Assembly: GCA_947568835.1 (NCBI GenBank) | Contig: OX387607.1 | Span: forward strand, 12,291,701-12,355,700 | Length of the DNA stretch: 64,000 bases | Reading direction: 5' to 3' | Origin: Protonemura montana | Lineage: Eukaryota > Arthropoda > Insecta > Plecoptera > Nemouridae | In this document: piece after piece, positions 13,859 to 62,048 of the stretch | Position numbering within the stretch: position 1 is the stretch's first letter | How the letters are laid out: each line of letters opens with the position of its first letter | Translations under genes and position numbers: made by a program | The notes under the pieces: generated by a model | The model's input: only the letters and a program-made list of their open reading frames with translations | Databases searched by the model: none | What the model was told of the DNA's origin: nothing

Positions 13859-13860
13859 AC

Positions 13861-14280
13861 CAAACGGTTTGGCGCGTTGGAAACACCGGTTCTCGTTAAA
13901 TCACCGAAGTTAAGCAACACTGCACTGGGTCAGGTTTTGGATAGGTAACCATTATACACATGACCAGTTCTGTTCGGGAGAGAGGTTGGAGGGATGAAAG
14001 TTAGTACAGCAACTTCACTCGCCTTGCTTATCAACCTCTCGACAGCATGGATTTGTGGAGGAATCCAACTGTTCGAGTTGTACCGTCCTTCGGAAGGGAC
14101 GTGAAGCCGGTGGTCCCCTTGGTCTTCGACAGGAGTAGGCTACGTGCCGGCATCGGGTTTCCCCTCCTCCCTTCTAGGCTAGGTTAGGTTCATCATCATC
14201 ATCCACTCATTCACCGACGCCATTAGACCAGTGCCGCATGGCCAGTTGTCAAAACAGTGCGTCGTTAAACACCACAAATA
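13861..14280 (+). mobile_element. 5S rRNA-derived SINE, near full length (copy A), nested in the hAT element
   Basis: The head matches metazoan 5S rRNA: ACCGGTTCTCGT, then ATCACCGAAGTTAAGCAAC (A-box region) and TTGGATAGGTAACC (C-box region, normally TTGGATGGGTGACC). A body of about 300 bp follows, containing GAGAGAGGTTGGAGGGATG, CTCTCGACAGCATGG and a CATCATCATCATCC stretch. The 3' end is ACAGTGCGTCGTTAAAC. This is the 5S-headed SINE (SINE3-like) architecture, transcribed by pol III from the internal promoter. Confidence 0.85.
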
Positions 14281-14640
14281 ATAAAACTGGTGTAATCTCC
14301 TCAACGCGAAAGTACGCGCGTAACTATGGATAGTTTCAACAAAAATTAAAACCAGTATTCGATTAAAATGATTGACTTTCTTGTACCAAATTCCCGAATC
14401 CCCACCAAATTTAAAGACTGCAACAATGTGGGAATGTGTAGACATGAGAGGGCGGCATTAATTTAATTTTCTCAAAATCATTACGTAATTAAAAATACAG
14501 TTCTGACCATGTCATTCCAAGCCCAATTTCATCGTAAATTGACTCCAAAAGAAACCTTAGAATAAAAATTAACTTGGAGCTGCGCCCGAAGCCCCTTATT
14601 TCCCCACTCTTTCGGTGCATTCACCTTGGGTCTCCTCTCC

Positions 14641-14662
14641 CCCCCCCCCCCCCCCCCCCCCC
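14641..14662. repeat. Poly-C homopolymer run
   Basis: About 22 consecutive C residues inside the hAT element. Such runs are prone to length error, so the exact length should not be trusted. Confidence 0.9.
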
Positions 14663-14735
14663 GCCGACACAAAAAAATGGGTCATTTTTGCGTACCCCCA
14701 CTAAAATTTTTACGAATACATCACTGGGCACACCG

Positions 14736-17700
14736 CTACTTGGACAGAATCCGAACGGCCAGCCAATACTGGCCAACGATGTAGATGACGGTGACTACAA
14801 AACCCGGGTACACGAGGATGTCGGTCAGCCCCAAGCCCCTCGCGACAATATTCTCCAACGACACCGTCGGCAACGTGCCCGGGGTCAGGTAACTCAGGTA
14901 GCGCAACCATACAATCTGACCCTCAAGCGGCCACATGACCCCGATCAGCATCGAATAGGGGAAGAAAGAACCCATCGTGATGTACATGGCCGTGGAGACG
15001 TTGCGGCAGCAGGCGCTCACTAACAGTCCTGTAAGGGAGACGTGGGAGGAGAGCGTTAGACTTGCTTGGTCTTGGTCCCATGATGCAAATGCATTTTTCA
15101 AAGCATTGCTATTGGTGCCACCAAGAATTAGCACCAAAACCAAGCGAGAGATGGGCACTTGATTTGAACGCTTGGTCGCGAAAAAAATGATAAAGATACC
15201 TCAAATAAATGTTAACTAAAGTATCTAGAAACCCTAGACAAGCAGAGATCTAAAAATTTCGTAAGAAGAAATGGGCTAAAATCAAGAATATCACCGAAAT
15301 GTAGAGCTCTAGTTAGCAAACAAAAGTTCCGACTCGAGTTCGACTACAAGAAAATTTGAAATTGGTGGGGGTTACCACCATCATGAGTTATTGTACCGAA
15401 TGTGATTCCTGCCAACGCTTGAAGCACCAGCATGGCAGTGACGTACACCAAGCTGCCCAGGCACGGCAACTCGAAGCCCAGGAACGAGATGGCCATGAGC
15501 TCGGCCACTTGGAGTAGCAGGCCTAGCGACTGGCTCAGTATGTAAGCCAGCAGAGACTCGCGCACGCGCGCTCCTGCGTGCAGAAACATCATTCACAGGT
15601 GGTGAACCACCAGAGAAAAGACTAACCGAACAGCTGACTTGCAACATTCACCTTCAGATCCGATTTAAAAAGCTCTGTTAAGCGATATCAGCCACCAAAC
15701 GTTGAATCTACCATTGGAACTCATATGTTTGATAGTTTTCTTTTTCAAAGTTAGCAACAAAAATTGAGTACAGTGGATAATGCTATAGTGAAATTTCAAT
15801 AAGGTGTAAGGACGCAAGTATTGCAACGCCAGTTGGTCTGCATGCGTAGACTAGGAAACATATAACTAACCGGCTACAAGATTGCGTTCCCAGAGGCCTT
15901 GCTGCTTCTCGTTGGTGATCAGTGTGGCAGTGGCCATGGCATTCAGGTAGAACACGATCCTGCGGCAAAAATAGAAAATGTTTTTCCAGCCAGCCTTTGC
16001 CATTACAAGGATTCTATGAGTAACCAGTAATTGAGTGCCGGCTACCACACCCAGCCTCGATGGAGGTTAAGGCTGACAAGGGGTAGTCGTGTCACACTCA
16101 CGTGATGATGATGCCTGGTGCCATGAAGGTGCGCTGACTCTGTGAGGGGAATACCGGTCGCGAAATCTGCAGCAAGCAACGACAACAGCCTCAAAAACGT
16201 GAATGCATAATTTAAATGTCAACCGAAGACACAAATACGACCTCATTGATGACTGCGATCCTTCAACTATAATGTAAAGCCATTCCTAAATGGTCGATAT
16301 TAAAATATCATACTTTTTTAGCTTCCCAAAAACACTGGAAGAAAGAGTTTAAACCATGGAAGAAATGCTTGGCGCAGGAAACGCAGGTGAATACTTTTTC
16401 CTGATCATTGGTGCAATAATTCATGTCATAATCTAGCTGAGTTTGTTGGGTAGGGGGTGGGGATGTACTTACGTCAACAGGCACGACAAACTGACGTTCA
16501 CTGTAGTTGCAGGCGATGGCGATTTGGCGGTTTAACAGATCCATCGTGTCCCAAAGCAGTTTCTTGGTCTGGTATCCGGCAAGGTAGTCTGTAATTAGGA
16601 GCCAACGGGAACGTGAACCCTTGACGAGGGTGAACTCGGTACCGGCACTTAGCCTGTTACTGTCCAACATCACGAAGGGCTAGCCACCGTCAAGCCTTGA
16701 CACACTGTGTTGGTTGCTCCTGTCCAACAGCACCAAGGGCCGGCCACCGCTTAGCCTTGTCCCTTTGACACACTGTGTTGATTGCTCCTGTCCAACAACA
16801 CCAAGGGCCGGCCACCGCTTAGCCTTGTCCCTTTGACACACTGTGTTGGTTTCTCCTAATCAATAGCACCAAGTGCCGGCCACCGCTTAACCTTAATATA
16901 CTGTGTTGATTGCTCCTGTCCAACAACACCAAGGGCTGGCCACCGCTTAGCCTTGTCCCTTTGACACACTGCACTGTGTTGGTTTTCCCTGTGGCATTGG
17001 TCTATTAGCTCTCATGGAGGCTGGTGACAGGTACGATGGACCCATGGGCATGTCGAGGACTCACTGGACATGTCGAGGTATACGTCAAACACCGCCGCCT
17101 CCAGCGTAGCGTTGTCCACACTGTCACCCTTCCGGTGCTTGAGTTCGAACAGTTGGCTGAAGTTGGCTGGGAAGTGGATGATGCCCTGGTTTCGCTCGCG
17201 TCGTGCCGCCGAGTAGGCCGTCGGGAAATCGGCGAAGTGGAGCTGTAACGGCGAGGGCGTTTAGTGAGCTTGGTGAAGTCTGGACACCTTTCAAAGTTGT
17301 CATGGAAACGATATTTGATGTGATATGCATTTTAAAGCATTGGTCATTCCATGCCCTAATCTCGGGTTCATAATCACAACAATATGTGTATTGCCTTTAC
17401 CAAAATAACAAGTTAAACAGTCAATACTGGTTAAATATGCAGTCAAAACCATAATCTCTATCAAAAGCTTTCTTGCACTTTGAAGACTATCTGTAGTTCC
17501 ACCCTAGAATAGGATCCCTATGCTTTCCTGCACACCATTAAGACTTTCTTACCTTTTTCACGACGCCATCGTCGATGAGGTCGACGAAGAGGCAGCTGAG
17601 GTCCTGATAGCGACACTCACGGTCGGCGTCCAGCCAACTCCCTGGGGGCACCGACGGCCACCTTTTGGCGGTGCGGACGGGACACGGGGAGATTTCCTCG

Positions 17701-20700
17701 TTGACGATGCCCAGCGGGAGTCCGGTAGGGTCGATACCGATAGCAAGGAAGAACGCCACCACTTGCAGTATCGGGAATAGGAACATAAATAGGATTCCCC
17801 TGCAACGACGGGAGTGCAATTAGACCATTTATGCTTCAGGACCCTCGACATGGAAAAGCCTGTCTCCTAGCAAAGCTGCAAACTTGACCGAGAAGATGTA
17901 AGCTTTCTTTTATAATGTGTGAACGTATTTCTTCCCCTCTTATTACCCTCTTTACCCTCTTATTTGTTTTAAATTCTGTGGATATGGACATTTTTTAAAA
18001 TAAAAAACAATACAATGTACCACTTTTTTTCCCCATCGGGAAAGGGCAATCGGTTGAGAAGCTGAATTCAGAACTGATCTGTTTTCGAATAGAAATCGAA
18101 CTTGTCTCGTTTAATTTGGTTTGCATTTATGTGGCGTCTGGAATAGCTTTGCATGTACCACAGGGGTTTTATAAATGTATTTGCTAGATAAGTTTACGAG
18201 GCAACGTCAATTATTTGTATTACCAAGCTGAATCGTCAGAAGCAAATATACAACTTATAAAAGTCGCTGGTAGAAACTGTCACAGTGAATTGCAGGTGCT
18301 ATCAGATTTGAGCTGTTAATTGTGATTGATCTGTCTAATTGGCCCATTTATAGCAAGTATTTACTCAATCATTCCAGGGTCACCCCTGGCCTAGCAACAT
18401 CGCTGTTAGCCACAGCTTGGCTTGCCGTACCCCTGGACCAGTGTGTTTGGTGAAGCCGTATTGACGCAGCACGTTCTTTGCAGATGGAGAGTGTATCTTG
18501 TTTGTCCGGCGGAAACGTTACGGCCCCAGGCGACAACAAGGATCGCACTTTGCCTCGATGGCACACACGACCGACCTTTGCAACGCGCATAGGCACAGAA
18601 CGTGGCTGATTGGAAGCCGTGAGATTGTGCGCTCAGCCAACTTGGACTGGAGGTGTAAAATGCAAATACGCGGATGGTTTGGATCTGGTAGATGTATTTT
18701 TTTCACAAAATTGACCACTCAGTTTTTGTAATAACTAGTTGCATGCTGTTAGAAATCGATTCCATATCAAATAAGATTATTTTCGGTTAAAAGTGACATT
18801 GTATAGATCCTGGTCAAGTTGCAAGAGCAACATGCATTTAAGAAGTTTTTTCTTATCTCTATAAACTATTTTAATCCTGGTACGACTCACGGGACTGGAA
18901 CCCTTCATCGTCGCCAAGAAGAAAGGGATCTCTGAGAGAGGAAAATCACATCCAGAACTTGGAAGCCCAAATGTATACCTATGTGGTAAACTTTGCTAAT
19001 TACACCTAATACCATCATGATCGTGCTGCCAATGGTTGTATCTGTCCACGCTGTAACTTGTTGGCTGCGCAAAACATGCACCAAACTCACGCGGTGTTGC
19101 GCATCGTTATCAGCCCGTCTTTGTAAAGAAGCGCGCGCACGCGGCTTGCGGTGGTGGAACGGTGACGCCGCTGTGCAATCGGCTCTGCGCACGACTCAGA
19201 CGCCTGCGTAGAGACAGAAATCATCTCTATGACTTTAACATTTAAGTATTTGCAATGACATTTAATTTAATGCGCCTCTTAGCTAAAAGCTATTTTCATC
19301 AACCACGTTATTTTAAAAATTATTCCTGAAATACCAAGCTCTCCTATGCATTCTCAAGTTAATCTTATTTCTGTAAAATTTCGCTCTGCTTGCTTCGCTC
19401 ATCAGTATTGGGCATCAGTCGTGAACCAGAATGCCCTTTTTATTCGCATTCAAAAATTCCACTAGCTTTTAAACTCTCTCGAACGTAACCGGAAGAGCCC
19501 TCCCCACAAGAAAAGAAATCGTGGGTCCTAGAGCCTCACCCAGTCGCAGTCCTCGCCGCGCTCGGCGTCGGTGTCGTCGAGGGCGTCAAGGTCACCCACC
19601 GAGTCCTCCTGGCGCTGGCTCAGCAACAGGTACGCCTCCTCAAGAGTCGTGCAGTCATAGCGCGCCACCAGCTGCGCAGGCGAGGTCTCGGCCAGAAGCT
19701 TACCACCGCGCAGCAAGCCGATCTACAAGAGCATACAGGGATGTTTCTTATTTAAGTTGGCTACCAGATGGTGGGTTGGCGCTCGAACGGTCGCTCGACT
19801 CTGCGTTAAGCAACACTGCTCTGGCCCAGGTAGCGGATGGGTAATCATTGTATACGTGGCCAGTTCTGTTCGGGTGAGAAGCTTTTTACTCTAGCTACTC
19901 GTATTTCTTCTTAACCTCTTGCCAGCGTGAATTTGTGGAGGTATATTGTAGTCCGAGTTGAACCTTTCCCTCAGAAGGGACATTAGGCAAGTGGTCCCTT
20001 TGGTGCTCTTTGACAGGAGTAAACTGGGTTTCACCTCTACGCTTCTAAACTATGTGGCGTTCATCATCATCTGCATCATCATCCACTCACTAACAGGCGC
20101 TTTAAGACAGCGCCACAGTGCCCATAGTCTCTCAGTACACCGTTTATCACAAGAAATCACTCTGTGTGCAATTGCCACTAATTTTTTAGATGCTGAATCT
20201 CGTTTGTTAATGGTATGAGTGCTGTCCCTCGGGAGTCCCTTAAAGTCCCTAAAAGCCCTAAAGCACTCAAAGTCCTTCATGATTTCTGGCCGTCTGCTGT
20301 GACAGGTCTCTTAAGGGTCACGGTCCCGAGGTCAGGGTCTTGACCAATGGGCAAGTCACTGCCACAGCAAGTACCAGTAGGGGAACTTTGAGTTCAGATA
20401 ATGTTGCAAATTGCTATCAATCTAGCTATATAATTAAAAACATTACTTGTCAAAGAGAAAAAAAAATACTACAAAAAGATAGATAAAGAGATATGCATAT
20501 ACAATTTGCAAGGTGAATTGAATAGCTTCGTGGAAATTATCAAGCCGTATTGATTTGAATTGAACGTGTGCACATGCCAGCTGGAGCTTCTTATCGCCTC
20601 CAGCCGGAACAGGAAAGAAAATGAATTACTGTCAGTGCAGTACATTAGAAGTAATGAGTAATGACAGTTCGATGTTAATCATCAGCAATGCCAAGAGATG

Positions 20701-25520: not shown

Positions 25521-28500
25521 TGCGTCTCAAAAAGAGGGTGCCTCAAACGCTGATTAGGGACTAATTGACTATCTCACATCGACAGAACACTTCGACGGAA
25601 GTGGAAGCAGCACCCGGAAAACACTAAAAAAGTCTCGATGGTGTTTTAACACGGCAACCCCTTGGTATGGCTTTGATTTTGTTCGCTGGTCTTGCCGCCA
25701 ACAACTGTCTTGAGAGCGATGATCACGGCATACTGTCTCTGCTTAAGCGATGCGTCGTCAGTTGCAGTGCCAACCTTGCACTTTGCGCAATTCTCTTAGC
25801 AAAGCGACTGATGCAGCGCGGGGACAGCGGCGTAGGCGGTGTGAGGTGCACGCAGTGTAATGATGCGTGTACATCGCCTTCCCCAAGACAGGTTAAAAGC
25901 AACAGGTATATAATTGAGCATATCTTTATGACTTCCCTGTTGAGGGGGCACAACCCCTTACATTTAAGTTGTACCTATTATTTGTGTCATTTTGTTGTTG
26001 TCACAACAAAATTACAACTTTCTCAACTAATTGCAAAAATTGTTAACTTTGACGTTTCTTGTCTTGGGTGCTTAGAAAAAACTTAGCCTATAGGCTATAA
26101 GCTATAGATATGAATAACAAAGTGATATTTTTCGATCCCGAGCACTTAATACATTGAACTGATTTAAAAAAAAATACACATATTTTTAGTATGAAAATCA
26201 TTGACTTTCTAATGGCACAACCTTTTTTTATTATTTAAAAGTTTCGTTCAGGAATCGGTTTAGCCAAATCAAAGCGCCACATTTCGAGCAAATTTCTACG
26301 GAAATAATGCTTTTTTCGGATCAATGGAAGTGTAGTGTGCTCCGGCTAAAATCTCATAGATAATTTAATTTCTAGTGCCAACTGGGTACACTTTCTAACG
26401 CGGCGTTATACTTTCGATGTTAATCCAAAACGCACAAAAAAAATAGAGGTAATAATCCCTTTTCACCCCTTTCATATTGACAATTTCTTTTTACGTACTC
26501 TGCCTCTGTCTAAAACCTGTGTTGCCGTTTTGCGAATCAATATTTCTACTGCCAACGATTGGATAGGAAATGAGTTTCTAACAACTGACAACCTGGCTTC
26601 ATCCACAGCGTTGTCTTGAGTTTAATGCAACAGAGCTCACGAAGGAGGCGTCGGCGAATGAGTGGGTGATGATGATGTTAACTCTTCTGAGAGGGGCTCA
26701 ATCCATAACTAAGTAAAAGCTATACCATTTTGCATTTCTCTTTCGGCATGTTCAGACGGAAATGCTTATCAACCATGTCTGAAATTTCGAAAGTACGTTT
26801 CTTTTGAAATATCCTAATTTCTTTTTCGAGTGTCACTTCTGTATTGTGATGGACAGGTAAGACATTGCGCTACGCCACTGGTCGTCGCTTAGTTGACGGT
26901 GGAAGCTCGACGCATGAACAGGCGACAAAAGGCGCCACTGATTCCTCGAGGGAAGGAGGAGACGATGTGAGAAACGGTGGGCGGAACCCGGGTTTTCACG
27001 GGACTTTGCTTTTCTTGAGACAAAAACTTGCACGATGACGATGACAGCAGTCATGCTCTTGCCTCTTTATTAATCTGTCGACTGCCATTTGTTAATTTTC
27101 TCACGGCAAAAAAAATGCAAGCTTCTAGCCCGACATATCGGAGATCTTATTTCTGGTAAATAAATTGCAAGAGCGTTCTTTTAGGAGCATGAATGGCCAT
27201 CGAAGGTGGGGAGGTCGGAAAATCATAGGGCTGAACACTACATGAAGCATGGATGCTCCCCCTTTGTATACCTATAATTTTGGAATATGGTTTTTTGGAA
27301 AAAAAATGTATCGTTTAGCAAATGGAAATATACAAGTTAAGTGGCATTCAAAACTGGAAGCGTCGTTTGCAATCTCCGAATTTTATTCGCGGGAAATTTT
27401 CTCTTCAATGAGTGTATTATTCCCAAATTCACCTGTTGAAAATTTGAAAATTTCGTTAAAATCGAGATAATTTTGACTCGCTTATGAGGGTAAGAATTTA
27501 AACACCTTGCATCGAATTAATATCGAACGTCCATCGTCTAAAACATGTGTACCCGTTAAGAATCCGTCTTTTGTGAGTTTTGCTCCTCGAAATTCCTTTC
27601 TGGAATTCGAAGCGAATTTTAGGGTGGTACAACCTTGAAAAAACCATGTAAAAAATATACCAAGTTATAATAAAGAGAATGCGATTATTTAGGTACTGTT
27701 TTTCTTTTCTGATTTGCGATAAGTGGTTTGTGTCAATAGTAATATGATTGGGATTAATTTTTGTTCCATACATCATCAAGTCCTTCGGGAACTTAAAAAT
27801 CTACCACAGAATAACACAACTATACCTTTGTAACTGGAAGTGTTGATTATTTTTGAGAAAAGCAAGAGTTTGAAGATCTTCGAAATATTTTCCAAAAATG
27901 TTTTAGAAGTTTTGTCTTACAGTGTGTTCTGCATTGTGCGCCTGCTTGTGTCAGCGGTCATCGCAATAAGTCACACGTAATGGGACGTAAACATGCATGA
28001 TTTTCTTCTTCAATTTTATTATCATATCAATCATTGTGATTACATTTCAAGGCTATGGCTCGGGGTTTACTGTACAAACATGCGATTATATCCTTCGTGT
28101 TTCTTTTACTCACAACTTATCAAAAAACTATTCAATGTTTAATGAGGCTTGACAAAATGACATGTACAACACGCTATCGCTCATTACCGGATTCAAATTA
28201 CATCAGTCAATAAGCAATAAAACTGGGTTTAATGCATTGTAGGGTTTAACGACGCACTGTTTTGACAACGGGTGTTGTTGCACTGGTTTTATTGCGTCGG
28301 TGAATGAGTGGATGTTGATAAACTAGACTAGCCTAGATGGGAAATCACGTGCAGGCACAAAAGCCTACCCCTGTTGCCGGGCAACTATGGGATCCTCCTC
28401 CCTTCTAGGCTAGATTAGGTTCATTATCATCCTCATCATCACCCACTCATTCACCGACGTAGTTAAACCAGTGCCACAGGGCCCGCTGTCAAAACGTGCG

Positions 28501-29884
28501 TCGTTAAACACATCAATCAATCGTCAAACAATAAGATTTATTTTCAAATCCATTATGTCGAGAAGTTGATTTGCAAGACAAGTGAAGCTGTTGCACCATC
28601 AACGATACCTGCAACTTCTCTCCCAAAAAGAACCGGTCATGAGTACACCTAATGGTCAACCATCAGATACCAGACCCAGCATAGTGTTGCGAGAACCGGT
28701 GTTTTCATCATGCTTTACGGGATGAGGATACAAGTGGGTGATGAACCGTTTGCATGTACATGGTTAGCATAACATTCTGAACATTTTCAGCTTTTAAACA
28801 TTCTCTAAACATCCTCACTTTGTACCTAGAACTGAGTTTGGAACGGAAATTTAAAAGAAGAAAAGGTTAGGAAAATATAGTCCCAGCTTTAACGATATTT
28901 TTTTATTATTTATTTTATTTACAGAAAACTGCAGACATCTAAAATTCACACAGTGTCTAAATAAAAGCTTTTATCATTTTTGTGTAGTTCTTATTCTTTT
29001 CGTTTATGTATTTGGATTTTTCCATAACAACGAAAAACAGGGAACAATTTTATGTCCGTTTATCCAAATACTGCGATTGACGCAATTTAAGTGCAATTTG
29101 TTGTAACTTTTACCTCTAAAGTACTTGTACTAGAGTCTACACTTTGGAGTTACAGTTCACGACCAAGACTCCAAACACCCTAGGATCTTACGTCAACGCT
29201 CGACATAAAAGCCAACGGCACAACGCCTAACCTAACCTTACCTCGGCCGACAATATCTCATGGCTTAACCAACCCAGCCAAGAAGAATTAAATAATATGC
29301 TTACAGCAAGTATCTATAACAAGTAAAAATATGTACACTTAAAAGCTAGCGAACAGGGTCCGTAAAACGCTTCTCCTACGCTTGGCAAACGCTCCACTTA
29401 AAGTTCCGCTACTGTGCAGATATCTGATTACTACGTTGAGGTCGCAGCGTGTGAGTCCACATCTAGCACTTGGGGTGATACCGTTGACAGAAAAGTGACG
29501 GTATTTTAGATTGTGAAACTTCGGGATTGAAGGGGGACTTGAAATATGACTCCAAATCGCCTAATCCCTTGGAGCTTCGACTCAGACTGGCCATTTGTTG
29601 GGAAAATCAGAAGGACTTCTACTAGTTTCACGAGAATCCTGTAGACTGTTACAAAGCTAGTAGGACCTACGATCTCCCGTATTCTACCTCTATAAACCCT
29701 TCGTCAGTTCACATTTGCGTAGATAGAGAATCTCTTGCATGTCTTTGAAGCAAGCTGGTCTTTCTATCTTGCTTATTATGTCCATTGGGCCTTTGAGCAT
29801 TCCCCCGTCACCATCGCTTTTCACCGCACGTAGAAGTAGACAGGACTGCGCAGTGACCGGTACGTCGCAAAGGGCGCGCACTGG
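25521..29884. other. Spacer between the two tandem ABCH genes
   Basis: About 4.4 kb with no recognised gene. It contains a composite 5S-SINE (28238-28705) and AT-rich unique DNA. The plus-strand frame 25667-26086 (139 codons) has no recognisable motif, and I do not call it a gene. The promoter of paralogue 2 must lie at the low-coordinate end, but I cannot place a core element. Confidence 0.5.
28238..28705 (-). mobile_element. Composite 5S-SINE with an internal inverted tail (copy E)
   Basis: A minus-strand SINE starts with its 3' end (GTTTAACGACGCACTGTTTT) at 28238-28390. It is interrupted by a plus-strand SINE tail (CTCCTCCCTTCTAGGCTAG through GTGCGTCGTTAAACACATC, about 28391-28530, with (AATC)n). 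The minus-strand element then resumes (GTCGAGAAGTTGATTTGCAA to GAGAACCGGTGTTTTC). The head has lost most of its 5S identity. Confidence 0.7.
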
Positions 29885-35800: not shown

Positions 35801-38800
35801 GAGCAAAACCCATTCGCAATTGTGAGTAATTTGAGAGAAATAACGATACGAAGTTTAAAAAGACTTCATCTAGTAGCAACGACAGTTTTTCTCGGTATTT
35901 TATTTATTGGTCGGTCTCGCGAAGGCACTGTAACATTAGTGTAACGCTGGGACTTTGATTTAAGCTTCAATCAAAATTATGAAACCTTTTCGTGACAATC
36001 TATCCACTGGCGAGCTTGGACAGACTCGACTAAGTTATTCACAGGGTTGCCACAACTACAGCAGCCCATCGGTCTCACGTTGAAGACAATTAAGTAGTTG
36101 ATCTACTCACGTTGACGGTGGTGGAGTCGTTAAGACGTGCCATGTAGAGACAACTGAGACCGTAGAAGTGACAAGTGTCGGCGTCGTCTCCACCAAGCTG
36201 CACGCCAGTCAGGTTCCCGATGTCCGCCGCGTTGTACCGCGTGCAGTCTCCCAGCTCGTCGTTGACGATGCCGATGTACAGGCCGTGGGGGTCACCGCCG
36301 ATCGCCACGAAGAAGGCAGCGATCTCGACAAGCGGGAAGAGGAACAGGAAGAAAAGCCCGCTGTACGGGACAGCGATACTCGATTAGATACCTTGGCATT
36401 GAATCTCCCGCATGGGGCTCACTCTTTATTTTCCTATCTAGGCAACTTTTTGAAATGATCATACCAATTACCAGTTCTATTCGGGAGAGAGGTTCAAGGG
36501 TAAGCCATGCTTATTAATCTCTCGACAGCATGGATTAATGGAAGTCTTGCTGTTCAAATTGTTGCATCCATTTGAAAGGATGGTCCCCTTGATTTTGTTA
36601 GGTCCCGGGCCAACACCGGGATGCCAATGGGTATACATCATCATGGTTAGCATTAAACAATCGATAGACCCTTGCCACACGGCTAGTTGTCTTCAAAAAG
36701 CGGCGTTTTGCAACACAAATGAATCAATTAAGTGTGTGAAAAGCGATTATTAACAGCTTTCAAAGCTGTTTGCCCATAATTTTAGTTGATTGGTAACTGT
36801 GCCAGATGGCCATATTTCAATAGTACTTGAGACGGTCTTGCGTAAACAAAGCGCATGCCTGGAAGTGTGCAAAGATCCCTCGTGTTTTGCTCCTGTCTTA
36901 CGGTAGCACATACCCCGTGTTTCGTAGGATGCGCAGGAAATTCTTATAGAGCATGGCCTTGAGCCTCGAGGTGGACGATCTCGCCGGTCGGATTTGCTTG
37001 GTGATCGGCTTATTGATGTACTCGTCGAAGTCAAGCTGGGGTCGTTTCACATCCTCACCCTCGTCTTCAGCGTCCAGGTCGCAAGTGGCTTGGGTGAACG
37101 TCTCGCCGTCTCCTTGCTTTCGACTCAGGATCAGGAAGACCTCCTCGAGGGTGGTAGCCGAGAAGCGTGCGATGAGGCGGTCGGGTGCAGTCTCCGCGAG
37201 GAGGGTGCCTTCACGCATCAGCCCGATCTGGAGAAGTTAGGGAATAATGATGTAGGAAAATAAAAATGATGGGGTACCTGAGAAATTTAGAGAAGAAAAT
37301 TAGAAAAAGAAATTAAGAAGAAAGGCTTTGAGTAATTCTTCCTCACGTGTATGCATTTCATAGGTTTCTTTTGCTCTCAGATTAAACCATTTGTAACAAT
37401 TATATAATCCTAAAAGAGTATTGAATGCTAAAAAAATGTAAGAGAAACTTCAATTAGAATTTGAAGTTTACTTTGCAAGTTAGTTGTTAACAATAGAAGT
37501 TGCATTTGCTAGGGGCAAAGAATACATAAATCTCAAAAAATTAAAATGAGACATAGGAACTTCCAATATCACCCAAAGATGCAGAACTGCTAAATAGTGT
37601 CTAGACACAAACCGACAATTTGAAACATTTTTCTTGAGTCGAGCAAATGGTTTTTGTGTCGTTTGAAATTTATGTACCGTCCGTTTGTTAGTGTGTAGAT
37701 CATCAAATCGACTATAGAAAATAAATAACCGACTGGTACTTACACACGACACGTCCTAAACTATATAACTAATAATAATTTTACTTTATGTGGCAAGAAT
37801 TTGTTGTAGCAAGAAGACCAAGCACCTGATAAATGTCTTGGATTTCATCGATTTTCACATGGATACAATTGGAACAATATTGTTCTTTTGTTCTATATTT
37901 TCCCGCATACCAAAATGAACCCCCAAAGTAAATCTTTTACTCAAGTTCAAGACAACAGTTATTTTGGCAAAGAGAAAACTTTTTCGAAAAAATACACCTA
38001 AGGTGCCGAAACTAAATTCTTTATAACTATAACCTCAAATATATGACCATAATATCTGTGTTTAAGTTTGGAGTGTTTCCCGCCTTTTTCACTTTTCACT
38101 TTGTGATTTTGGTCTTTTGAGAATCTTAAGTACCTGAATAGATCACAGGATCCAGCCTGCCGGTAAAATTTAAGTCTTGCAATCCATTGTTGGCTTGGAG
38201 AGTTACACAAATTGAAAACAAATAAACAAACAAAAAACAGCTGCAGGGATTCTTTTTATCTGCCGAGATGTTCCACTCCAGTACATCCAGACGAATGAGA
38301 GGTCCATGATGAGTGCGTACCTTGTGCGCCTGCCGCGCCTCCTCGATGTAATGCGTGGTGATGATGATTGTCATGTTGCGGTCCCTTGAGATCTCCACAA
38401 GGTAGTCCCAGATGCTGCAGACACCAAAGCAACGCGCCCGCTTAGTAATTTGGCAACACCATTGAGTTTATGTGCTAGAGGACCAGGGTACATTCCAAGC
38501 TGTCTACTGAGCAAACGAGCCGGGAACAAATGGTAATAGTATGCGCTACCCGATGTCGCTCACGGTCGTTCTTTCCTAACAGACCTCTACAGTTAAGTCA
38601 TTACGGCTCAAAATTATCGTTGAGATAAGCATTAAGAAATAATATTGAGGGTAAATCATAAATCCCTCGAAAAATCCCCGTGGTTTAGCCACGCTTTGCA
38701 GACCGGCTTCCAGAAGTCTTTGGGAAACGACAGAAAGCTTCTACCGTCTCAATGTTTTGATACAATGTTAGGGGTAGGGCGTTTCGCAGGCTTGGTACTC

Positions 38801-41800
38801 ACCTTTGTCGTAGCACGGGGTCCAGCCCAACCGTGGGTTCGTCCAGGATGAGTAGCTCAGGCGTCTGCACCAACGCCGCCGCGAAGCTCACCCTCCGCTG
38901 CTGCCCGCCACTGGAGACATCGACGTTATTGTTAATACAAAGCATGGATTGAGGATCACTGCACGGTGCTAAAGGAGGGAGAGTGCCAAATTTTGACCAG
39001 TTCTTGTGTGTTTAATTCTTGGGGGTTGAGAACTTACTCTTAGTATATTCCTACATTACCATTGTGTTAATAGATTTAGTAAGTGTTCCAGCGCTAGTGT
39101 TAAACATTCCGCTAATCAAACGAGCCAGCAATACGTGGTATTGGTAGCTTCCAGCCGATGGCAATTGCGATCATCGCTTTAATAAACCTATGCAGATAAA
39201 TAAACACGAATATTATTATTGATACATTTATATCAATCTACGAGATTTATTTGCATGAGTTATCAATTGTGCTCATTCGAGCGTAATCCAGTCTCAAGTG
39301 CGAGTGGTCTGAGAAAAATGTAGCAACCACTATTTCCACACCGGCATCGGTTAGTGCTTTTACCAAAACTTTTTAGCTTAGAGCCGGTTTTTCAGTGGAA
39401 CGTAAAGTAATTAACAGACTGTTAACAAACATAAAACATCTATTACTTGCCTGTTGTCAAGTAAATAACAAATTTACGAACTGTTAGGTTCTTAACATGC
39501 CACTGAAAAATTGGCACTACACCTTTAAACTCACTGGTACCTTTCTGGTCAGTGCGATAAGCCAGCCCAATCTGGACCTGATGCAAAAGAGAACCAAGGG
39601 TCGAGGATGCCTTGGTAACCAGATCAGAATGGAGTTGGTGTCCCATACTTTGGGAAGGCACATTCTGGTTTGGCAGAATTGAAGCTTCGGGGTGAGGGGG
39701 AATATAACGTTGCCAAGGAAACCAGGACAAGACTCAAACTTAGGCCGCCAGAAGAGCTTCCCTGCACGTACCTGAGGTCCTTGATGAGCCGGTCACCAGG
39801 CGGTAGCTGCAGCAGGTTAGAAAGAAACAGGTACCGATCGGCGATCTGTTTGTTGCTCATACCGAACAGCCAGCCGAAGTAGTAGATCGCCCCCTGCACA
39901 TCGAACTCGTCGACCAGTGCCACCTCCTGCAACATCGACAAGGGAGGCGTTACGTGGGTTACTTGAACGCAACATCCACGATGAGTCAGATTCCATCCGT
40001 CATAGGCCAAACATTTCAGGCGTGGCTTTTTTTAGTTTTTGTTGCAAGTCTTTATTTGATTTGCTGATTTGTTGCGTTTGGCGACGCACTATTTAGATAA
40101 CGTGTCTAATGGCGTCGGTGACTTATTTGATGAGGATGAGGAAGACGATGAACCTAGCCTAGCCTCGGTGCCGCCACATCGACTACTCCTGTTGAAGAGC
40201 ACTTAGAGAAACACCGACATAACGTCAGTTCCGGAGGACGGTGCAACAAAATAAACGGGATTACTTCTCTAATCCCTGCTGTTGAGAGGTCAAATCAAGG
40301 CGAAATAAGTTGTTCTAATATCTTTCATCTCTCCAATCTCTGAACTGTTCATATTGCATAAGATGGTCGCCTATCCGATGCCTGTTCGGTGGTCACAAAT
40401 CTGATTTGTAAACAGCCAGCTATTGACAAAACACCAAGGGGGGCTTTCTGTTGTCATGAAATGCTAATCGGGAACAAATTAAATGCCGACTAGACGTTGT
40501 GCGTTTAATATAACGATAATCTCTCGTTTTTTTTTTATTATTATGAACACTATCACTGTCTCAAAAATAGATGCCTAAACTGGGACTCGAACCCCGAAGA
40601 GATCAGTTATAAAAAATACAAAATTATAAAAAGTTATAAAAAATCCCGTGGAGATCGGGGTTCGAGTCCCCGTTACGGCATCTATTTTTGAGACGATTAT
40701 AGTGTTCATAACAATAAAATACCCCGCATATTGCAAGCGTTTGCAACTTAATTAAGATTTCATCTACAATCTCTCAGCATTTACCCAAATTACTTCGGAA
40801 GGTACCATAGTGTTTCAACACGTCTGGCCCGAGTTCACATGCAAAAAATGAAGTGGTCGGTCACGGCTGTCTTGATAGTGAAAAGTAAACAATTTCCGAG
40901 AGTCATTAATCATATTCCGTGATGGTACTTATGCCATTTTAGGAACGTCAGGTACCAGGCTGGGCATGGGAAATAACTAAGAATGGCCGTGAAATTTCGC
41001 TTCTCTCCCATATCATGTAGCTGGTAGCCATGCGTTACAAAACCAAGTAGCCGTGGTGCGGTCATCCAGGCATTCGTACGGACACCAGGAATGTTGCTTA
41101 ACTCCAATTTTGTGCCAAACGCAGAAAAAAATGCACTGACATTACCTGTTCTTACCTAAGTCCTAAACAATGTTTAAAAGCGAGCAAAATTCTCTCAATC
41201 AGGATAAAATTATTTAAATACACTGCATTTTAAAGATGGTGAAAGCACTGTTACCAACATAACCTTGTCCGCGACTTCGTGAAATTCTAACCGAATACAA
41301 TGAAGATTACGATGGTCAGCGCACGCCTTCTGGCCTAATTCTCAAGTGACATTTAAAAGATTAAAAATTGAGAAAATGGCGCTCTGGTCTTACCTGCGGC
41401 ATGTAACCCACTCGTGGTCCTGGCACGCCGCTACCCTCCGATCCCGGTGCCCCGCCGAGCACCCTGATGTCGCCGGAGTCGAGGCGGAGGCGTCCACAGA
41501 TGCATCCCAGAAGCGTTGTCTTTCCGCAACCCGAAGCCCCGAGGAGACCGTAGCTGCAATCCGCAAAGCATGACGGTCATAAATGTAGTCTACCCTTCAG
41601 GAGCGATGGCGTGCGATTTTGTAACTTTTTTCCAGTGAGATGAGATGAAATAGCCAAATGTTTCAATGCTATTATTGAAACAAACTGTGGAATCTCATCT
41701 TTTCTCATTTGTAAAAATGTTACAAAATCGTTTTTCTAGGATTTGTTTGTCTATACAGACAGAAATAAGCACTCAGTACTGCATTTCACAAATATTTAGC

Positions 41801-49700: not shown

Positions 49701-50103
49701 TGATTGATTGATTAGTGGGGTTTAACGTCGCACTGTTTTAAAAATGGGCCTTGTGGCATTGGTCTTATGGCGTCGGTGAATGAGTTGATGAAGATAATGA
49801 TGAACCTTATTTAGCCTAGAAGGGAAGAGGTGAAACCTGGCGAACTCCTGCCAAAGAGCACCAAGGGTACCAGCGGATTAACGTCGCTTCCAAAGGATGG
49901 TACAACTCGAACAACAGGATTCATCCACTAATCCATTTTGTCGAGAGGTTGATAAGCAAGGTGAACGAAGTTGTTGCACTGAAGCGTTAACCTCTCCAAC
50001 CTCTCTCCCGAAGAGAACCGATCGTAAATGTGATAGATCCAGCGCAGTGTTGGTTAATTTTGATGATTACACGAGAACCTGTGTTTGCAACACGCCAAAC
50101 CGA
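49701..50103 (-). mobile_element. 5S-SINE, near full length (copy F)
   Basis: The minus-strand element has tail (AATC)n seen as TGATTGATTGATTAG, 3' end GGTTTAACGTCGCACTGTTT, body with GTCGAGAGGTTGATAAGCAA, CTCTCCAACCTCTCTCCCG, and head ending in GCGCAGTGTTGG and ACGAGAACCTGTGTTTGC, AACACGCCAAACCG. The part between the body and the A-box equivalent is shortened. Confidence 0.8.
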
Positions 50104-54370: not shown

Positions 54371-54424
54371 TACTTTGTTTTTGTCCCATAATTCTGATAT
54401 TTTTGTCTCTTTTTCTCTCTTAAG

Positions 54425-54504: not shown

Positions 54505-56900
54505 TTTTAGACGTGAAAGATTTCTGATATGTTATTTCTTGACAGTTTATTAACAGTCATATAGACTCTGTCCAAGTTCATTTTATGGTCTATCTGTCTT
54601 GTCTTGACAAATAACGTCACAAGCACAGTCCAAAATTTAAAGTAACCTGACCAAGACTGCATGACAGTGCTAGTACGCGAGTCTTCGGCTATGTCATCTC
54701 AGTGACTTGGTCTTGACTTGTCTAGAAGACAATGGGAGCAAACTGTAATTATTTCAGGTAGCTAGCAGTAGTTTCTGACACAAATAAATAATTCGAAAAA
54801 TAAAGTAACGGCGATTAAGTCCGAAGAGCATGTCATTGCATTTGACAGTACTCTGACGTTCGTATTCTGTGCTAACGGCTATCAGAATTCCAACCCTGCG
54901 GGGGTTACCACTTACCAACGTTCATGTGCTGGTGCACTTATCCGTCTCCAATAATATGCAGCAAACTACGCCCAATTGAACGGCGACCATTAGTTTTAAT
55001 TCGCAGTGAAGTGCATCTGCAAGTGCTTTATTCGTCTAGCACCCCCCTGGCCATCAACACGCGGAGGGTCTGAATCAAACCGCGACAAAACAAGAAGTTA
55101 GCTTACGTCAGCCGCTGATAGCTTCAGGTCGCTGTCAAAGCTAACTTTTTGCTACATTAAATTTTGAACTTGCTTCGCATTCAGAGCGCGGGGTGAGGGT
55201 CTATTTTTAAGGCCATGTATGGTTTCAGTGCCAAATTTCAATGTTATTACCGAATAATCCTTGCAGTTTGTTTGAGGTTTTAAATCAGCAAAAAAAAAGC
55301 TTAATTGCAGTGAAACGGAACCATCATGGGTAGAAATCGTGTACATTTTAAGCAAAGTGTGGACAAAACTTTGAAGCGGGTGATTGTTCACATCACGCGA
55401 ACTGTGAGGAAAATATCATCGGGTACCGGCCTGTGCTGGTAGGGACCAATAGAGCGCATACCAAGCAGAGGCAAAAGGGATCGCTAGGGACCATCGCCTC
55501 CTTACTCGGAGAGGTGTCCCCCTTTTTCGGTAAGCTATGCTTGCCCAATTGTCAAACACCGGGATGACGCGTGCGCGTACGTTTTACAAGTTATCCAATC
55601 CTAAAGGAAGGTACCATTCGAATAATTGAGAAACAATTTGAGACATGTCCCATCATCATTTCGCTTTCAACGCGGAAGTAAAGCTGTCAGGTGTTTCAAA
55701 CTTAATGAGAAGAAAATGAATTGGTTTATTTATCATTAGTATAATGACAGTCGGATCAACATGCAATAGCCGTGGATTGAAACCGTGCTTTGCCAATCCG
55801 TCTTGACTGCCTCGTGGTTGTCAACAAACGGATTGGCGATAGACACAACGCGTTGTCAGCCGGCGGATTGGATCCATCGCCTTGCCAATCCGTCTAGATT
55901 ATTATGTCTAGATAATTACATGGATCTAGTCCGCGATCTAGTGTGTCGCGACCATTCCTTAGCATCCCAATCCCCAGTAACGACGCTTACCTGCCTGTCG
56001 GAGGAAAATCCCGAGAGCGTCGATCACAATGCACTCGCTGTCACTTCACACCGCACCGTGTCTTGCTATAAAGGAGAGAGCGACCGTTCTGGGCGGACGT
56101 CGCTGTTGAACTGAGCGAGCAGCTTTCGGTGGCCGGCCCATAGTCGCTCGCGGCGACGCCAACCTTGGCCGTCAGCGCCGATATTCGAGGCGCCGACGCG
56201 GCTGGGAGATTGGTGAACGCCTCGGGGAGGGTGCTGAAACGACCGCTTGCTGCCGCACGTTAGCTATACAATTTCTACATCCACCTTATCAGCATTGCTC
56301 GCTTCCTAAAAAAAAATAAAAAAAAATTGGAAACACTATTTAAATTACAGATTTCATGGACCAGCTTTGAACCTGATAAACGCTCCCACCCTTTTTTCAA
56401 GGTGAAATAATTATTGAATACCGGATACTTTGCCGATGGCAGCGAGGCTTTTAAACCTTCTTTGCGATAAAGTAGCTCGGTGAAACGTTAGAAAAAAAAA
56501 CATAAAAAAATCGGACCACCATCAACAAAATTAAGAAAATTTCACAAAAATAAAGCTAAACCCTAACGGGATCAGGTCGTTTGTCGTGCGTCAGATACTC
56601 GCCAACCAGCACGAGGACGGCACCGTACCCAAGCCGGAATAACGCCCTCCCCATCCGATCAACGACCAAGCCCAAGCGATCGCGTTGCGACGTAAGTGCC
56701 GTATTGGGCAACTGCCGCGTTGCGTAACACACACGGATCACGTCGTCGTCGTCGCTGTCGAGGAGCGACCAGCAGCTTTCTTTTCGCCGCCAGGAGGTCC
56801 GGCCATCATCCGACTTACCGCATGCTGAGCCAGCAGACGAGGCAGGCCGTGATTTCCTGAAACAATCGCGCGCCGCGCTGCTGGACGGCCCGACAAGGCT
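54505..56900. other. Intergenic region with one promoter-like spot
   Basis: No gene is recognised. A CTATAAAGG TATA-like motif at about 56066-56074 is followed by GC-rich DNA (56090-56240). Three scattered copies of GCCAATCCGTC, or its inverse, occur at 55790-55895. The minus-strand frame 56969-56556 shows no family motif. Confidence 0.4.
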
Positions 56901-56901
56901 G

Positions 56902-57065
56902 AATTGATTTGTTGTGTTTGACGACGCACTGTTTTGACAACAGGTCTTGCGGCACTGGTCTAGGGACATCGGTGAACGTACGTGTGCTGGTGAGGATGAT
57001 GATGAACTTAACCTAGTCTAGAAGCGAGAAGGGTAAACGTGGTGTCGGCACGTAGTCTACTCCTA
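56902..57065 (-). mobile_element. 5S-SINE, 3' part only (copy G)
   Basis: The 3' end (TTTGACGACGCACTGTTTTG) is followed by body sequence as far as TCGGCACGTAGTCTACTCCT. It stops where the next SINE (copy H) begins, so the two lie head to tail. Confidence 0.7.
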
Positions 57066-57817
57066 GGTTGATTGATTGATAATTGTGTTTGGCGACGTAC
57101 TGTTTTGACATCTGACCATGCGGCACTGGTCTAATGGCGTCAGAGAATGATGACGAGAATGATGATGAACCTAACCTAGATTAGAAGGGAGGAGAGGAAA
57201 CCCGGTGCCGGCACATAGCCTATACTCTTGTCAAATAGCACCAAGGGAATCACCGGCTTAACGTCCCTTTCGAAGAACGGTACAACGCGAACGACATGAT
57301 TCCTCCCCGAATCCGTGCTGTCGAGAGGTTGATAAGCAAGGCGAGTGAAGTTGCTGTACTAACTTTCATCCCTCCAACCTCTCTCCCGAACAGAACTGGT
57401 CATGTGCAATGGTCACCCATTCAATACCTGACTCAGCGCAGTGTTGCTTAACTTTCATCCCTCCAACCTCTCTTCCGAACAGAACTGGTCATGTGTATAA
57501 CGGTCACCCATCCAATACCTGACTCAGCGCAGTGTTGCTTAACTTTCATCCCTCTAGCCTATCTCCCGAACAGAACTGGTCATGTGTATAACGGTCACCC
57601 ATCCAATACCTGACTCAGCGCAGTGCTGTTTAACTTTCATCCCTCTAGCCTATCTCCCGAACAGAACTGGTCATGTGTATGATGGTCACCCATCCAATAC
57701 CTGACTCAGCGCAGTGCTGTTTAACTTTCATCTCTCCAACCTCTCTCCCGAACAGAACTGGTCATGTGTATGATGGTCACCCATCCAATACCTGACTCAG
57801 CGCAGTGTTGCTTAACT
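57066..57817 (-). mobile_element. 5S-SINE with tandemly amplified promoter region (copy H)
   Basis: The (AATC)n tail shows as TTGATTGATTGATAAT. The 3' end is TTTGGCGACGTACTGTTTTG, and the body passes GTCGAGAGGTTGATAAGC to about 57362. The part corresponding to the 5S control region is then repeated five times (separate entry). The extreme 5' end of the head (the usual ACCGGTTCTCGT segment) is missing beyond the last unit. Confidence 0.8.
57363..57815 (-). repeat. Five tandem 89-91 bp units carrying the 5S-like pol III control region
   Basis: Units are 57363-57451, 57452-57542, 57543-57633, 57634-57724 and 57725-57815. On the minus strand each begins with GTTAAGCAACACTGCGCTGA (A-box region) and GTATTGGATGGGTGACC, a near-perfect 5S C-box. 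Each then ends in SINE body sequence (GACCAGTTCTGTTCGGGAG, AGGTTGGAGGGATGAAA). Units differ by only a few bases, and shared variants (AGCCTAT, GCTGTTTAA) show stepwise duplication. Confidence 0.9.
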
Positions 57818-60800
57818 TCGTACTTTTTCTCTCTGATTGAACTTCCCTTCTGTCCAATCAGATGGGCTTAAACAAACTTAAAGGGTGCCCATTCTTATCC
57901 CTCACAGGATAAACTTTTTAAGCCAAAATTTTAAACCCTATGCCATGCCAGGGCAACATAGATCTCTAGACAATTTAGCATTATCCACAAACTCCAGGGG
58001 GGTGTGGGTACTCCAGGGGCCTTACCTAATTAAATTTCAGAAATTTATACTCTTCCATGCTTTTATATGTTTTGTTTTCTTCGTTTTATAGTAAACAACC
58101 AATCTCTCCTTCATTTCTATTTAATATAGTTCTAAATTATGAAAAAAAATGTTTAATTTATTGGGAAGAGCGTGGCCTAAAACGTCTCCAAAAATTAATT
58201 TATAAAAAAGTAAAAATATATTTAAAAAAATCCTCGGTTATATGCAAAACCAATCCCAATGCTACAACTGTTTTAATCTTTTAAGGAAAAAGAAAAAAAA
58301 TTGCTAATGGATTTTATTTCATTGACAAATGTTTGTCCTATATTACTGCCATATTGGTATTGAGTTTTCCCCCAATCACTCTCGATAACGAATGAGATAT
58401 TTTGGAAAATCGTCGAATTGCTTAACAAAAATTTATGAAACTCAACGTTGCTTTAACAAAAAAAAAACTTTAAAAACATGGCGACTTCACGACAGTGTTT
58501 TCAGTTTCAATGAGCGGACAATTTCCATTAAACTAAAATCTTATGCAGAGCGCTAGCGGCAAAGTTTCGGTTAGATAACTTCCAGCCAACAGTTGCTACC
58601 CTTGAAGAAATAGGCGGCCTAATTTGGGGCGTAACCAATCAAAATGTTAGAATTGTGACCGCGGAGTTGACTCTCGTCCTGAAAGTTAGCCTCGAATATC
58701 GTTGCGGGGCAGACGGCACCTTGTGCCAGGTTTACGAACTGCAACTCATGGTACCCGCAAAAAATCCCGGCCCCTTCGATTGGATTCGGCACAATCACGG
58801 CACTCAAGGTTGACCTCGGCGCCAAAACAAAACCAAACAAATGCCAAAAAATTGATCGATCCATCAGCAAAGCATTTATTAATACTTTTTTGCTGAAGAC
58901 TTTTCTAGGGGCCGTGGGCGTCATGATCCCATGCGATTGTCGCCCGTTGCTGTCATCAGCGACGGTGACAACTCAAATTTAGGGAATGTAGCTTCTTGCT
59001 GGTTTCGAAGCCAGTGGGGCCTTCGATCTCTCCTATTCTACATGTGTAACCCACTGGTCTGTACCCACTTATGAGGTAGCGCATTCCGTGGACTGGTTTC
59101 CAAGCCAGTGGAGCCTTCAATTTCCCCTTTTCTATCTATATCTACATATTCTCACCCTAAACCACTCTAGTATTTTCTGGGTTAGGTTCTGCCAAAGTAT
59201 CTGGAGATGATTTTGGAAGCTACGTTTGGACATTTCTTTTCTTAGATAGGAGCCGATTACCCCTTTTTCTCTCTTCAAAAGATCGACGGTGGTGCGTTTA
59301 CAGGATAGACTCTATAAGCGCCTGGGTCCAGAATTATCAATTTTAAAACTTTTTCAGGACTGGCAAAATAAATTCTCTATACCTTCCTTCCGTTGTAGTC
59401 GTCTTCATTTTCATGCGGCCATCTATCAGGTGTCAATCTAAGCTGTAAGAGCCGTGAGTCGGCAATGCGAACACTGTTTTACCGACAATTCTTTTAGTTT
59501 TACAGTTGACTACTAGGTAGTGTGACACGTCACGTACATGAGTCGTACGCGTGCAGTTGTTTTTAATTATTTGCCTGTTACAATGATAGTGTAACGTGTT
59601 TACTAATTGACCAATTATTTCAAAGAGATTACGCAATTAATTAAACTAACATTGTCTGCAAAGAACGAAATTACAGGTTGCCAATTAAATTTAATAATTG
59701 TCTTAAATGAGCAACGTGTTCTTTTGTAGGCCCAGTCTTAAAACAAAAGTAGGTACATGAATATTTTAAAAAAAAATCTGTTTAAATCTTTGAAATTCGG
59801 CTAATTTATTTACAAGCTTCAGATTCGTGAGGTACGCTGAAGCAAATCAGCAGATAAAACGCGTACAAATTTGCAAGTACAAAAACATTTTCCATATTCT
59901 GGCCACTGACAACCCACATTTTGTAAACGTGAAATGAAAGAAGCGGTTGTAGTGTTGCTTACCACATATTTCCCTGCATCGAGCACTGACCCTCGGCCAT
60001 TCTTGGATCCGTTTCGCGGCCACCCTGGTGCACCGCGTGCATTCCTCTCTAGTGGCCTACCTTGAGTGCACCGCGATGCACCTGCACATGCACCGAGAGA
60101 CGGTCTCAGCTGCTTTGGGTTACGGCCTTCCCAAACAAGTCGTTCCCTTAGCTAGATACTAGTTCAGGGGTATTGCGTTTTGACAAGGCCTACGACATGC
60201 GTTCATGTTGTTGAAATGATATCGCCTACCATATTCTAGCAGCGCTGTAACTTGCTGCACTCTAGACTTGTCGCTAGATGTCGGATAAATCGGTAGTAAA
60301 ACAAAATATGCCTAATTTTATCATTTTCTCAACTAAAGTGTGGTAGCTGAATCAATTGCCAAGGCGACTTCCAAGCAAATTTAGTGCATATTAGGTTTTT
60401 CTGTCATTTGGAAGCACAACTCTGGGTTATCTTTACTGAATATGAAATAATAAACTGTGGCCTATGTCGCCCTATCACCCTCATCGTCCATTTCGTTCGT
60501 ATCGTGGATGATATTTTCCAAAATGCTCATCGCTAATATTGCCTGTACCGTCTTCACCTTTGCCAATTTATCAATTTTGCCATCCGGCTTCTGATGATAT
60601 CGATGACATAAACGTCTCGTGGTTTGTGATTCAGTGTTTCTTAGCAGTAAGTCAGAATGGTAGTGGGTTTTCCGCACTTCCCAGCCTTCTGAAGTCAATG
60701 CGGATTGCTTTCATCGTTTTTCTTTTATACTGTATGTAATCGTGATGCGATGAGTTACTTACTCTACTAGACAATGATTTGCGGTAATTGCTGGTTGCTA

Positions 60801-61606
60801 CCAGTATTTACAGGATGGTGGTATCTCTTTAATCTTATGCTGGGAGATTACTGGTGAGATTAATCTTAGCCCACGAATTAGATACTTCGTGGATCTATGA
60901 ATTTGTTAAGAATTCACTCCATAGATCAGTATTGCTTATGTGCGTGTTCTGCACGATAATTATTTCTCAAATCAAAATTTCCCCAACAAGGCATCAATGA
61001 AAAAAACAATATCTCTACTAATGACATCAACCACATCTCTAAGAAATGCATTTTCGCTGTCTACTTTGAAACAAAAAATTACTATTAACCTTATGAGATT
61101 CGACGGTAGATTCTGTTTTTGATAGCCATTGAGATGCTGAGATCGCCAGACAGAGATTTCAAAATTCTACTTTCGTATGTTATCGTTGGTACATAACGCG
61201 TGGCACCTGGCCTTACCGATTGCAACTGTGCATTAATGACCTAGCCAAGACAGGAAGGGTCCCCTTGATCCTGCCCCACCCCGTTACCTCGGTCTCTCCG
61301 ATCACTGTAATCAATCCACCGGCGCGGCACTAGTCCTCCAGCCAGTCCGTCAGGCCCTTTTGTAAACAGTCACATTACAAGAAGACATTACTCTGATGCA
61401 TGTAATCACGAAGCGTCAAGTCATGTGCCTGCCTGTGCCTATCGCCTCGTACTGAAGCGGCGTGTCATGCTCGGACGTGATTGAAATCGTACGCCCCATT
61501 TTCACGAGCATTTTCACGAACACGAGCATTCTCTCCGGATCACATTTTCCCAAGATTTAGGTAAGGATTTCACTCGACGAAACATCCGTTTTGTATTTAC
61601 AGAAAC
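57818..61606. other. Unannotated region, AT-rich, with a small duplicated segment
   Basis: No gene is recognised. Around 58996-59150 a segment of about 55 bp occurs twice (CTGGTTTCGAAGCCAGTGG... and CTGGTTTCCAAGCCAGTGG..., each followed by GCCTTC and TTTC/TCTC-CTATTCTA-like sequence). A related piece lies at about 29650-29690. The rest shows nothing I can assign. Confidence 0.45.
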
Positions 61607-62048
61607 CGAACCGTCGGCGTGTTGGAAACACCGGTTCTTATGAGAACATCGAAGTTAAGCAACACTACGCTGGGTCAGGTATTGGATGGGTGACCATCAA
61701 ACACATGTCCAATTCTGTTCGGCAGAGAGGTTGGAGGGATGAAAGTTAGTGTAGCAACTTCACTCGCCTCGCTTATCAACCTCTCGACAGCATGGATTTT
61801 TGGAGGAATCCTGTTGTTCGCGTTGTACCGTCCTTCGGGAGGGACTTTATGCCGGTGGTCCCCTTGGTGCTCTTCGACAGGAGTAGGCTATAGACCGGTA
61901 CCGGGTTTCCTTCCTCTCTTCTAGGCTAAATCAGGTTTATCATCATCCGCATCATCATCTACTCATTCACAAACACCATTCGACCAGTGCCGCAGAGCCC
62001 ATGGTCAAAACAGTGCTTCGTTAAATCCCACGAATCAATCCATCCATT
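61607..62048 (+). mobile_element. 5S-SINE, full length (copy B)
   Basis: It starts GAACCGTCGGCGTGTTGGAA and carries ACACCGGTTCTTATGAG, ATCGAAGTTAAGCAACAC and GTATTGGATGGGTGACC, the best-preserved C-box. The body is complete. The 3' end is ACAGTGCTTCGTTAAATC, with a tail AATCAATCCATCC. Confidence 0.85.

Follow-up and report, generated by a model that had tools for sequence, protein, structure and literature searches.

A retroposed 5S-headed SINE with a multiplied promoter unit in Protonemura montana

A 64,000-nucleotide stretch of the Protonemura montana genome (contig OX387607.1, positions 12,291,701 to 12,355,700 of the forward strand; hereafter the window, with a G+C content of 42.9%) contains dispersed copies of a short interspersed nuclear element (SINE), one of which carries its promoter region five times in a row. 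This locus raises the question of what kind of element the SINE is, and how its promoter came to be multiplied. Analyses of the window and of the genome to which it belongs (258.5 Mb in 34 contigs) make it highly probable that the element is a retroposed SINE of about 429 bp with a 5S rRNA-derived head, whose promoter unit has been multiplied into arrays that are carried in RNA and also grow in place.

The head of the element was compared with the genome's own 5S genes. Our SINE consensus, built from 24 high-scoring relatives of the copy at position 13861 found elsewhere in the genome and trimmed to 429 bp, matches all ten copies named in an earlier note on this DNA (E <= 1e-4). In an alignment with the 5S gene seen most often in the 30 loci examined, the head agrees in 92 of 112 columns and reaches a local score of 52, while 2,000 dinucleotide shuffles gave a mean of 11.0 (standard deviation 2.1) and a maximum of 21.5; the SINE body scored 11.5 against the same gene (15.0 on the reverse strand). 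The 5S origin that the note had proposed for the head thus stands far above the level of shuffled sequence. The Rfam family 5S_rRNA was detected above its gathering score in two of the ten copies, at 13860-13978 (46.4 bits) and 61606-61723 (48.8 bits). Since scores of up to 117.5 are reached by the 5S genes of this genome, the SINE head is probably the remnant of a promoter and not a 5S gene. The element starts within a few bases of the 5S gene start, as would be expected if transcription begins there.

By its head, target-site duplications and tail, the family is a SINE3-type retroposon. The 5S-derived head contains box A, the intermediate element (IE) and box C; the copies are dispersed and bear target-site duplications; and the 3' tail is a simple repeat. 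Full-length near-consensus copies start with ACCGAACGG and end with GTTAAACACCAC plus a short repeat, and direct repeats were seen by eye to flank many of them; flanking repeats of 11-14 bp surround the copies at loci L001, L003, L004 and L006. Three copies (L019, L025 and L033) have bodies that do not differ from the consensus, suggesting that the SINE was active recently.

The family is also highly abundant, as the earlier note had expected, with thousands of exact word matches genome-wide against 0-1 in controls. The 3'-end 14-mer occurs 5,595 times (reversed control 1), a 20-mer leading from the promoter unit into the body 4,833 times (control 0), and a head 21-mer 2,156 times, in some cases in tandem (control 0); such exact-word counts miss decayed copies. 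Within the window, the 14-mer occurs four times, and AATCAATCAATC six times with one mismatch, compared with 0.54 expected. Up to three mismatches from GTGCGTCGTTAAAC gave 12 window matches (shuffle mean 5.4), a loose count that is weak within the window alone because the largest of 100 shuffles reached 11. On contig C1, the raw count of exact head matches is 97, with 52 in the last 7.1 of its 33.1 Mb (26000000-33122741).

The tail proved more variable than described. An (AATC)n tail, which the note had attributed to the family as a whole, is present in part of the copies and is one of several tail types. Near-consensus copies end in (AAT)n or (AAAT)n, and exact tail words number 599 for AATC and 1,068 for AATAA genome-wide. 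Among 56 bodies compared, with tails judged by eye, AATC tails were found in none of the 26 that are at least 95% identical to the consensus, itself derived from an (AAT)n group, and in about 13 of the 30 others.

The array in the window belongs to the SINE copy at 57066..57820 (minus strand), in which the promoter region occurs five times and is followed by the body and an (AATC)-type tail. Tandem Repeats Finder (TRF) detected 5.1 units of 91 bp at 57360..57818 (minus strand), confirming an array that had been noticed at 57363; what had been missed is that promoter multiplication is a genome-wide feature of the family. The 91-bp unit corresponds to consensus positions 49 to 139, repeated head to tail. 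It comprises box A, IE and box C (44 bp) and a 47-bp linker that leads into the body in single-unit copies, and its consensus equals the 5S gene in the first 13 bases and in TTGGATGGGTGACC. Exact unit junctions number 18,448 genome-wide (control 0), rising to 27,828 with up to two mismatches (control 333); if each of the latter represents one 91-bp unit, unit repeats occupy about 2.5 Mb, or about 1% of the genome. Arrays are present in the window copy at 57820, in six (L002-L007) of the eight loci that a tail word located first, and in 15 of the 21 exact unit-to-body copies in the first 2.3 Mb of C1. Thirteen of these 15 were recognized by an exact junction no more than five units upstream and two (L005 and L006) by BLAST; of the others, L008 is single-unit and five were not classified, and the 21 include six of the eight tail-word loci. 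A rarer second frame, exemplified by L001, has a 92-bp unit made of head positions 1-92, with 1,002 exact junctions (control 0). The 91-bp unit may have arisen by duplication between short words that are almost identical, GAAGTTA (near position 49) and GAAAGTTA (near position 138); such a microhomology origin would give the observed junction.

Arrays of this kind could in principle be an independent satellite that arose from 5S-like sequence, with SINEs merely beside or within its blocks. Long arrays do exist: L101 joined to its neighbour L109 holds at least 38 complete units and part of another, and the 22-unit array of L089 ends without a SINE body. Many of the arrays sampled, however, are short and lie between a SINE head and a SINE body, and the unit, with its linker, is colinear with the single-unit SINE. 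Among the matches listed, 100 exact junctions in 2.3 Mb of C1 are dispersed over 28 loci, with spans of 1 to 23. Moreover, for 21 array copies, of which L001 has the 92-bp frame and the other 20 the 91-bp frame, the flanks around head, array, body and tail share a word of at least nine bases in 7 of 21 cases, compared with 0 of 420 mismatched flank pairs; for words of at least seven bases, the numbers are 11 of 21 and 18 of 420. At L004, a 14-bp duplication abuts a start within the array, at unit position 101, and seven complete units follow, with the body and the tail at the opposite end. An independent satellite is therefore very improbable.

The structure of L004 also bears on how the arrays reach new loci. 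Because a single-unit RNA cut at position 101 cannot yield complete units, the template of L004 had several units, and multi-unit RNA was thus retroposed in at least one insertion. Five more copies (L007, L093, L094, L102 and L106) start inside a unit, at positions from 59 to 110, and continue across a junction; their duplications are weaker or absent, and the start of L094 is doubtful, with upstream sequence that resembles a more decayed unit. These copies speak, with differing clarity, against the explanation that single-unit SINEs insert and all arrays form later at each locus, multi-unit RNA never being retroposed. That explanation accords with unit variants that are confined to one copy but occur in at least two of its units (21 of 136), with alternating or repeated unit patterns in L004, L101 and L106, and with unit identity that is higher within than between copies in 20 of 28 cases. 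The excess is small, though, at 94.6% within versus 94.0% between copies (94.4% versus 91.1% before badly aligned end units were dropped), which indicates that much unit diversity is common to different loci, and 17 variants recur in at least four copies. We thus consider it unlikely that all arrays formed after insertion. Arrays do also grow in place, since private variants occur in several units of one copy and unit patterns are repeated.

Our favoured account of a retroposed SINE with a multiplied promoter unit would combine the following steps. RNA polymerase III (pol III) would transcribe the SINE from its internal 5S-type promoter, and target-primed reverse transcription, driven by a long interspersed nuclear element (LINE), would spread the copies. 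Arrays are carried along in the retroposed RNAs and also lengthen in place, by unequal exchange or slippage.

Several observations weigh against this account. In 14 of the 21 array copies, the two flanks do not share any word of nine or more bases, and only one of the six window copies that cover the unit has an array. Near-consensus copies (L015-L038) are single-unit, having been found, though, with a single-unit query. The expected partner LINE would have the 3' end GTGCGTCGTTAAACACCAC followed by (AAT)n or (AATC)n. A search for the RVT_1 domain gave 150 scored matches from 1,781 candidates, in which LINEs and probably long terminal repeat (LTR) elements are mixed; the 3'-side pieces of three LINEs among these 150 (L110-L112), with ends placed by eye, revealed no partner, matching the SINE consensus no better than E 0.34. 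The window also contains a LINE-like fragment, whose terminal repeat is (ACAATT)n, unlike the SINE tail. Within the units, the promoter part and the linker differ from the consensus by 0.036 and 0.027 on average, respectively (165 of 172 units kept; permutation p 0.85 for a more conserved promoter); conservation is thus no higher in the promoter part, and existing copies give no sign of selection on the repeated promoter. Finally, 5'-truncated copies (11 of 27) start at positions 17, 44, 47 (three), 59, 60, 88, 101 and 110 (two), without clear clustering at the phase predicted for initiation in an inner unit.

The last two points bear directly on the possible function of the inner units. In mouse L1 elements, monomer duplication is said, in the sections of the report consulted, to maintain promoters during truncation-prone retrotransposition, while the mechanism of monomer growth is called unclear (PMC6454616). 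By analogy, the inner units of the SINE could be extra promoters that would keep 5'-truncated copies transcribable, and multiplication would be favoured for that reason. The presence of the whole A-IE-C region in the unit consensus, with its stretches of 5S identity, and the frequency of 5' truncation agree with such a role. The promoter part that is no better conserved than the linker, the scattered truncation points and an internal TTTT in the body consensus, a possible pol III terminator, argue the other way. We regard extra promoters as possible, yet lean somewhat against them.

Among the sequences examined, 7 of 82 tail matches were without a long SINE match. One short stretch, L075:1204-1233, matches the SINE 3' end but has no SINE body upstream and could be a relative or a partner remnant; no long open frame was found upstream of it. 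The LINE-like fragment of the window, at 10464-11357, resembles a non-LTR reverse transcriptase by eye, and for its first part Pfam returned no family at 1e-3.

Other 5S-headed SINEs have been described in insects, namely HaSE3 of Helicoverpa armigera and SINE3-1_TC of Tribolium (PMC3272025), and the 389-bp PxSE4 and PxSE5 of Plutella xylostella (PMC8010984). As far as these descriptions extend, all four resemble the present SINE in having a 5S head with A, IE and C boxes, a non-5S body, a short-repeat tail and target-site duplications, and PxSE4 and PxSE5 are similar in length to its single-unit form of about 429 bp. They differ in their tails, with (TGA)n and (ATGT)n reported for known insect SINE3s versus (AAT)n, (AAAT)n and (AATC)n here, and in their partners: HaSE3 and PxSE5 each reportedly have a partner LINE, while none was found here among the pieces compared. 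The parts of the HaSE3 and PxSE accounts consulted, to which we liken the element by description and not by sequence, do not mention tandem promoter multiplication, which is unusual for a SINE3-class element. Outside this class, SINE-VNTR-Alu (SVA) elements are likewise described as non-autonomous retroelements with an internal variable number tandem repeat (VNTR) of variable length; they are, however, composite hominid elements, and to our knowledge their VNTR is not a 5S promoter. The Cassandra and Ajax terminal-repeat retrotransposons in miniature (TRIMs), in the portions of their account consulted, are mobile elements with a 5S-derived promoter region, but are LTR-type elements (PMC10886601). 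The closest analogue is the monomer array in the 5' untranslated region (UTR) of mouse L1, for which the sections consulted describe variable tandem promoter units, 5' truncation within the array and a proposed unequal exchange (PMC6454616). Mouse L1 is an autonomous LINE with pol II promoters and monomers of about 200 bp, in contrast to the 91-bp units and presumed type 1 pol III promoter of the SINE. Among the entries listed from the open-access literature (titles and beginnings of abstracts), there was no SINE with a multiplied 5S promoter; four SINE sequence words had no match in open-access paper texts, and one SINE body word was absent from viral and prokaryote sequence collections.

Within the window, the SINE set consists of two full-length copies, one nearly full-length copy, the copy with the array and a remainder of decayed or truncated copies. 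The full-length copies, both single-unit and on the plus strand, lie at 13859..14275 (93.7% identity to the consensus) and 61605..62031 (87.6%), the latter giving the top 5S_rRNA match of the window. The nearly full-length copy at 49702..50102 (minus strand) covers consensus positions 7-429 and has an (AATC)n tail. The consensus match itself spans 49715-50102 in this copy and 57085-57820 in the copy with the array. Decayed copies are present at 19805..20150 (plus strand; positions 51-426, 69%), at 28239..28690 (minus strand; two pieces, positions 56-218 and 256-429, with an opposite-strand piece between them), at 36458..36580 (plus strand; positions 93-241), with a possible tail remnant at 36665-36716 (E 0.006), and at 40076..40384 (minus strand; positions 73-382 plus a tail motif). 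A 3' fragment at 28394..28511 (plus strand) covers positions 308-426 at 91%, and two 5'-truncated copies on the minus strand, at 56911..57064 and 62686..62920, cover positions 276-429 and 187-429. Besides the ten named copies, the consensus found three weak pieces, at 16623-16679, at 23937-24016 and at 30914-31003, the last a head match on the plus strand (positions 1-91, 69%).

The copy at 13861, listed in the earlier note among the others, is a full-length SINE copy, but it is not an independent insertion, lying inside a 1.5-kb DNA transposon. The 1.51-kb segment at 13216-14726 is also present in five other places at 99.4-99.8% identity. At all six places it ends in CAGTGATGTA and TACATCACTG, with short terminal inverted repeats CAGTGATGTATT at both transposon ends, and has on either side an 8-bp direct repeat whose sequence, as judged by eye, differs between places. 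Target-site duplications of 8 bp mark hAT elements, and by these sequence features the segment is a hAT-like non-autonomous transposon that picked up the SINE. The last 18 bases of the transposon occur 186 times genome-wide, with or without the SINE (control 0). This SINE copy, being inside a repeated transposon, has thus been multiplied by another kind of element.

Other features of the genome and window were also observed. Both strands of L088 and C11:1-106000 carry 5S genes, spaced in units of about 9.5 kb, and a histone 3' UTR stem-loop occurs within the 10 kb examined; by its sequence, the arrangement is a linked 5S-histone cluster. Some contig ends (L080, L082 and L083) carry one of two 5-bp repeats, oriented as in telomeres: (TTAGG)n on C16 and (TTTGG)n on C13 and C1. 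At 40549-40698 and 43314-43386, the window has a tRNA match and, about 3 kb off, a fold-back pair of tRNA-like sequences, for which the below-threshold call of Rfam is a Wolbachia small RNA; the tRNA-like sequences are possibly a tRNA-derived repeat family. Among five proteins scanned from window exons, two gave Pfam matches, to S-methyl_trans and ABC2_membrane. Together with the contig-end repeats and the histone stem-loop beside the 5S genes, these matches point tentatively to an arthropod genome.

In its widest form, which we put forward tentatively and with less than even confidence, the finding may be of the first known SINE with a reiterated complete type 1 (5S) pol III promoter, in which one to at least 38 units travel with the element, keep truncated copies transcribable and seed a satellite-like 91-bp repeat that makes up about 1% of the genome. 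If this is true, a SINE with many promoters would make it possible to examine in nature whether retroposition depends on the number of promoters, and would parallel the mouse L1 monomer system in a pol III setting. The passage from SINE to satellite could also be followed in it, with numerous loci of a single small genome representing different stages.

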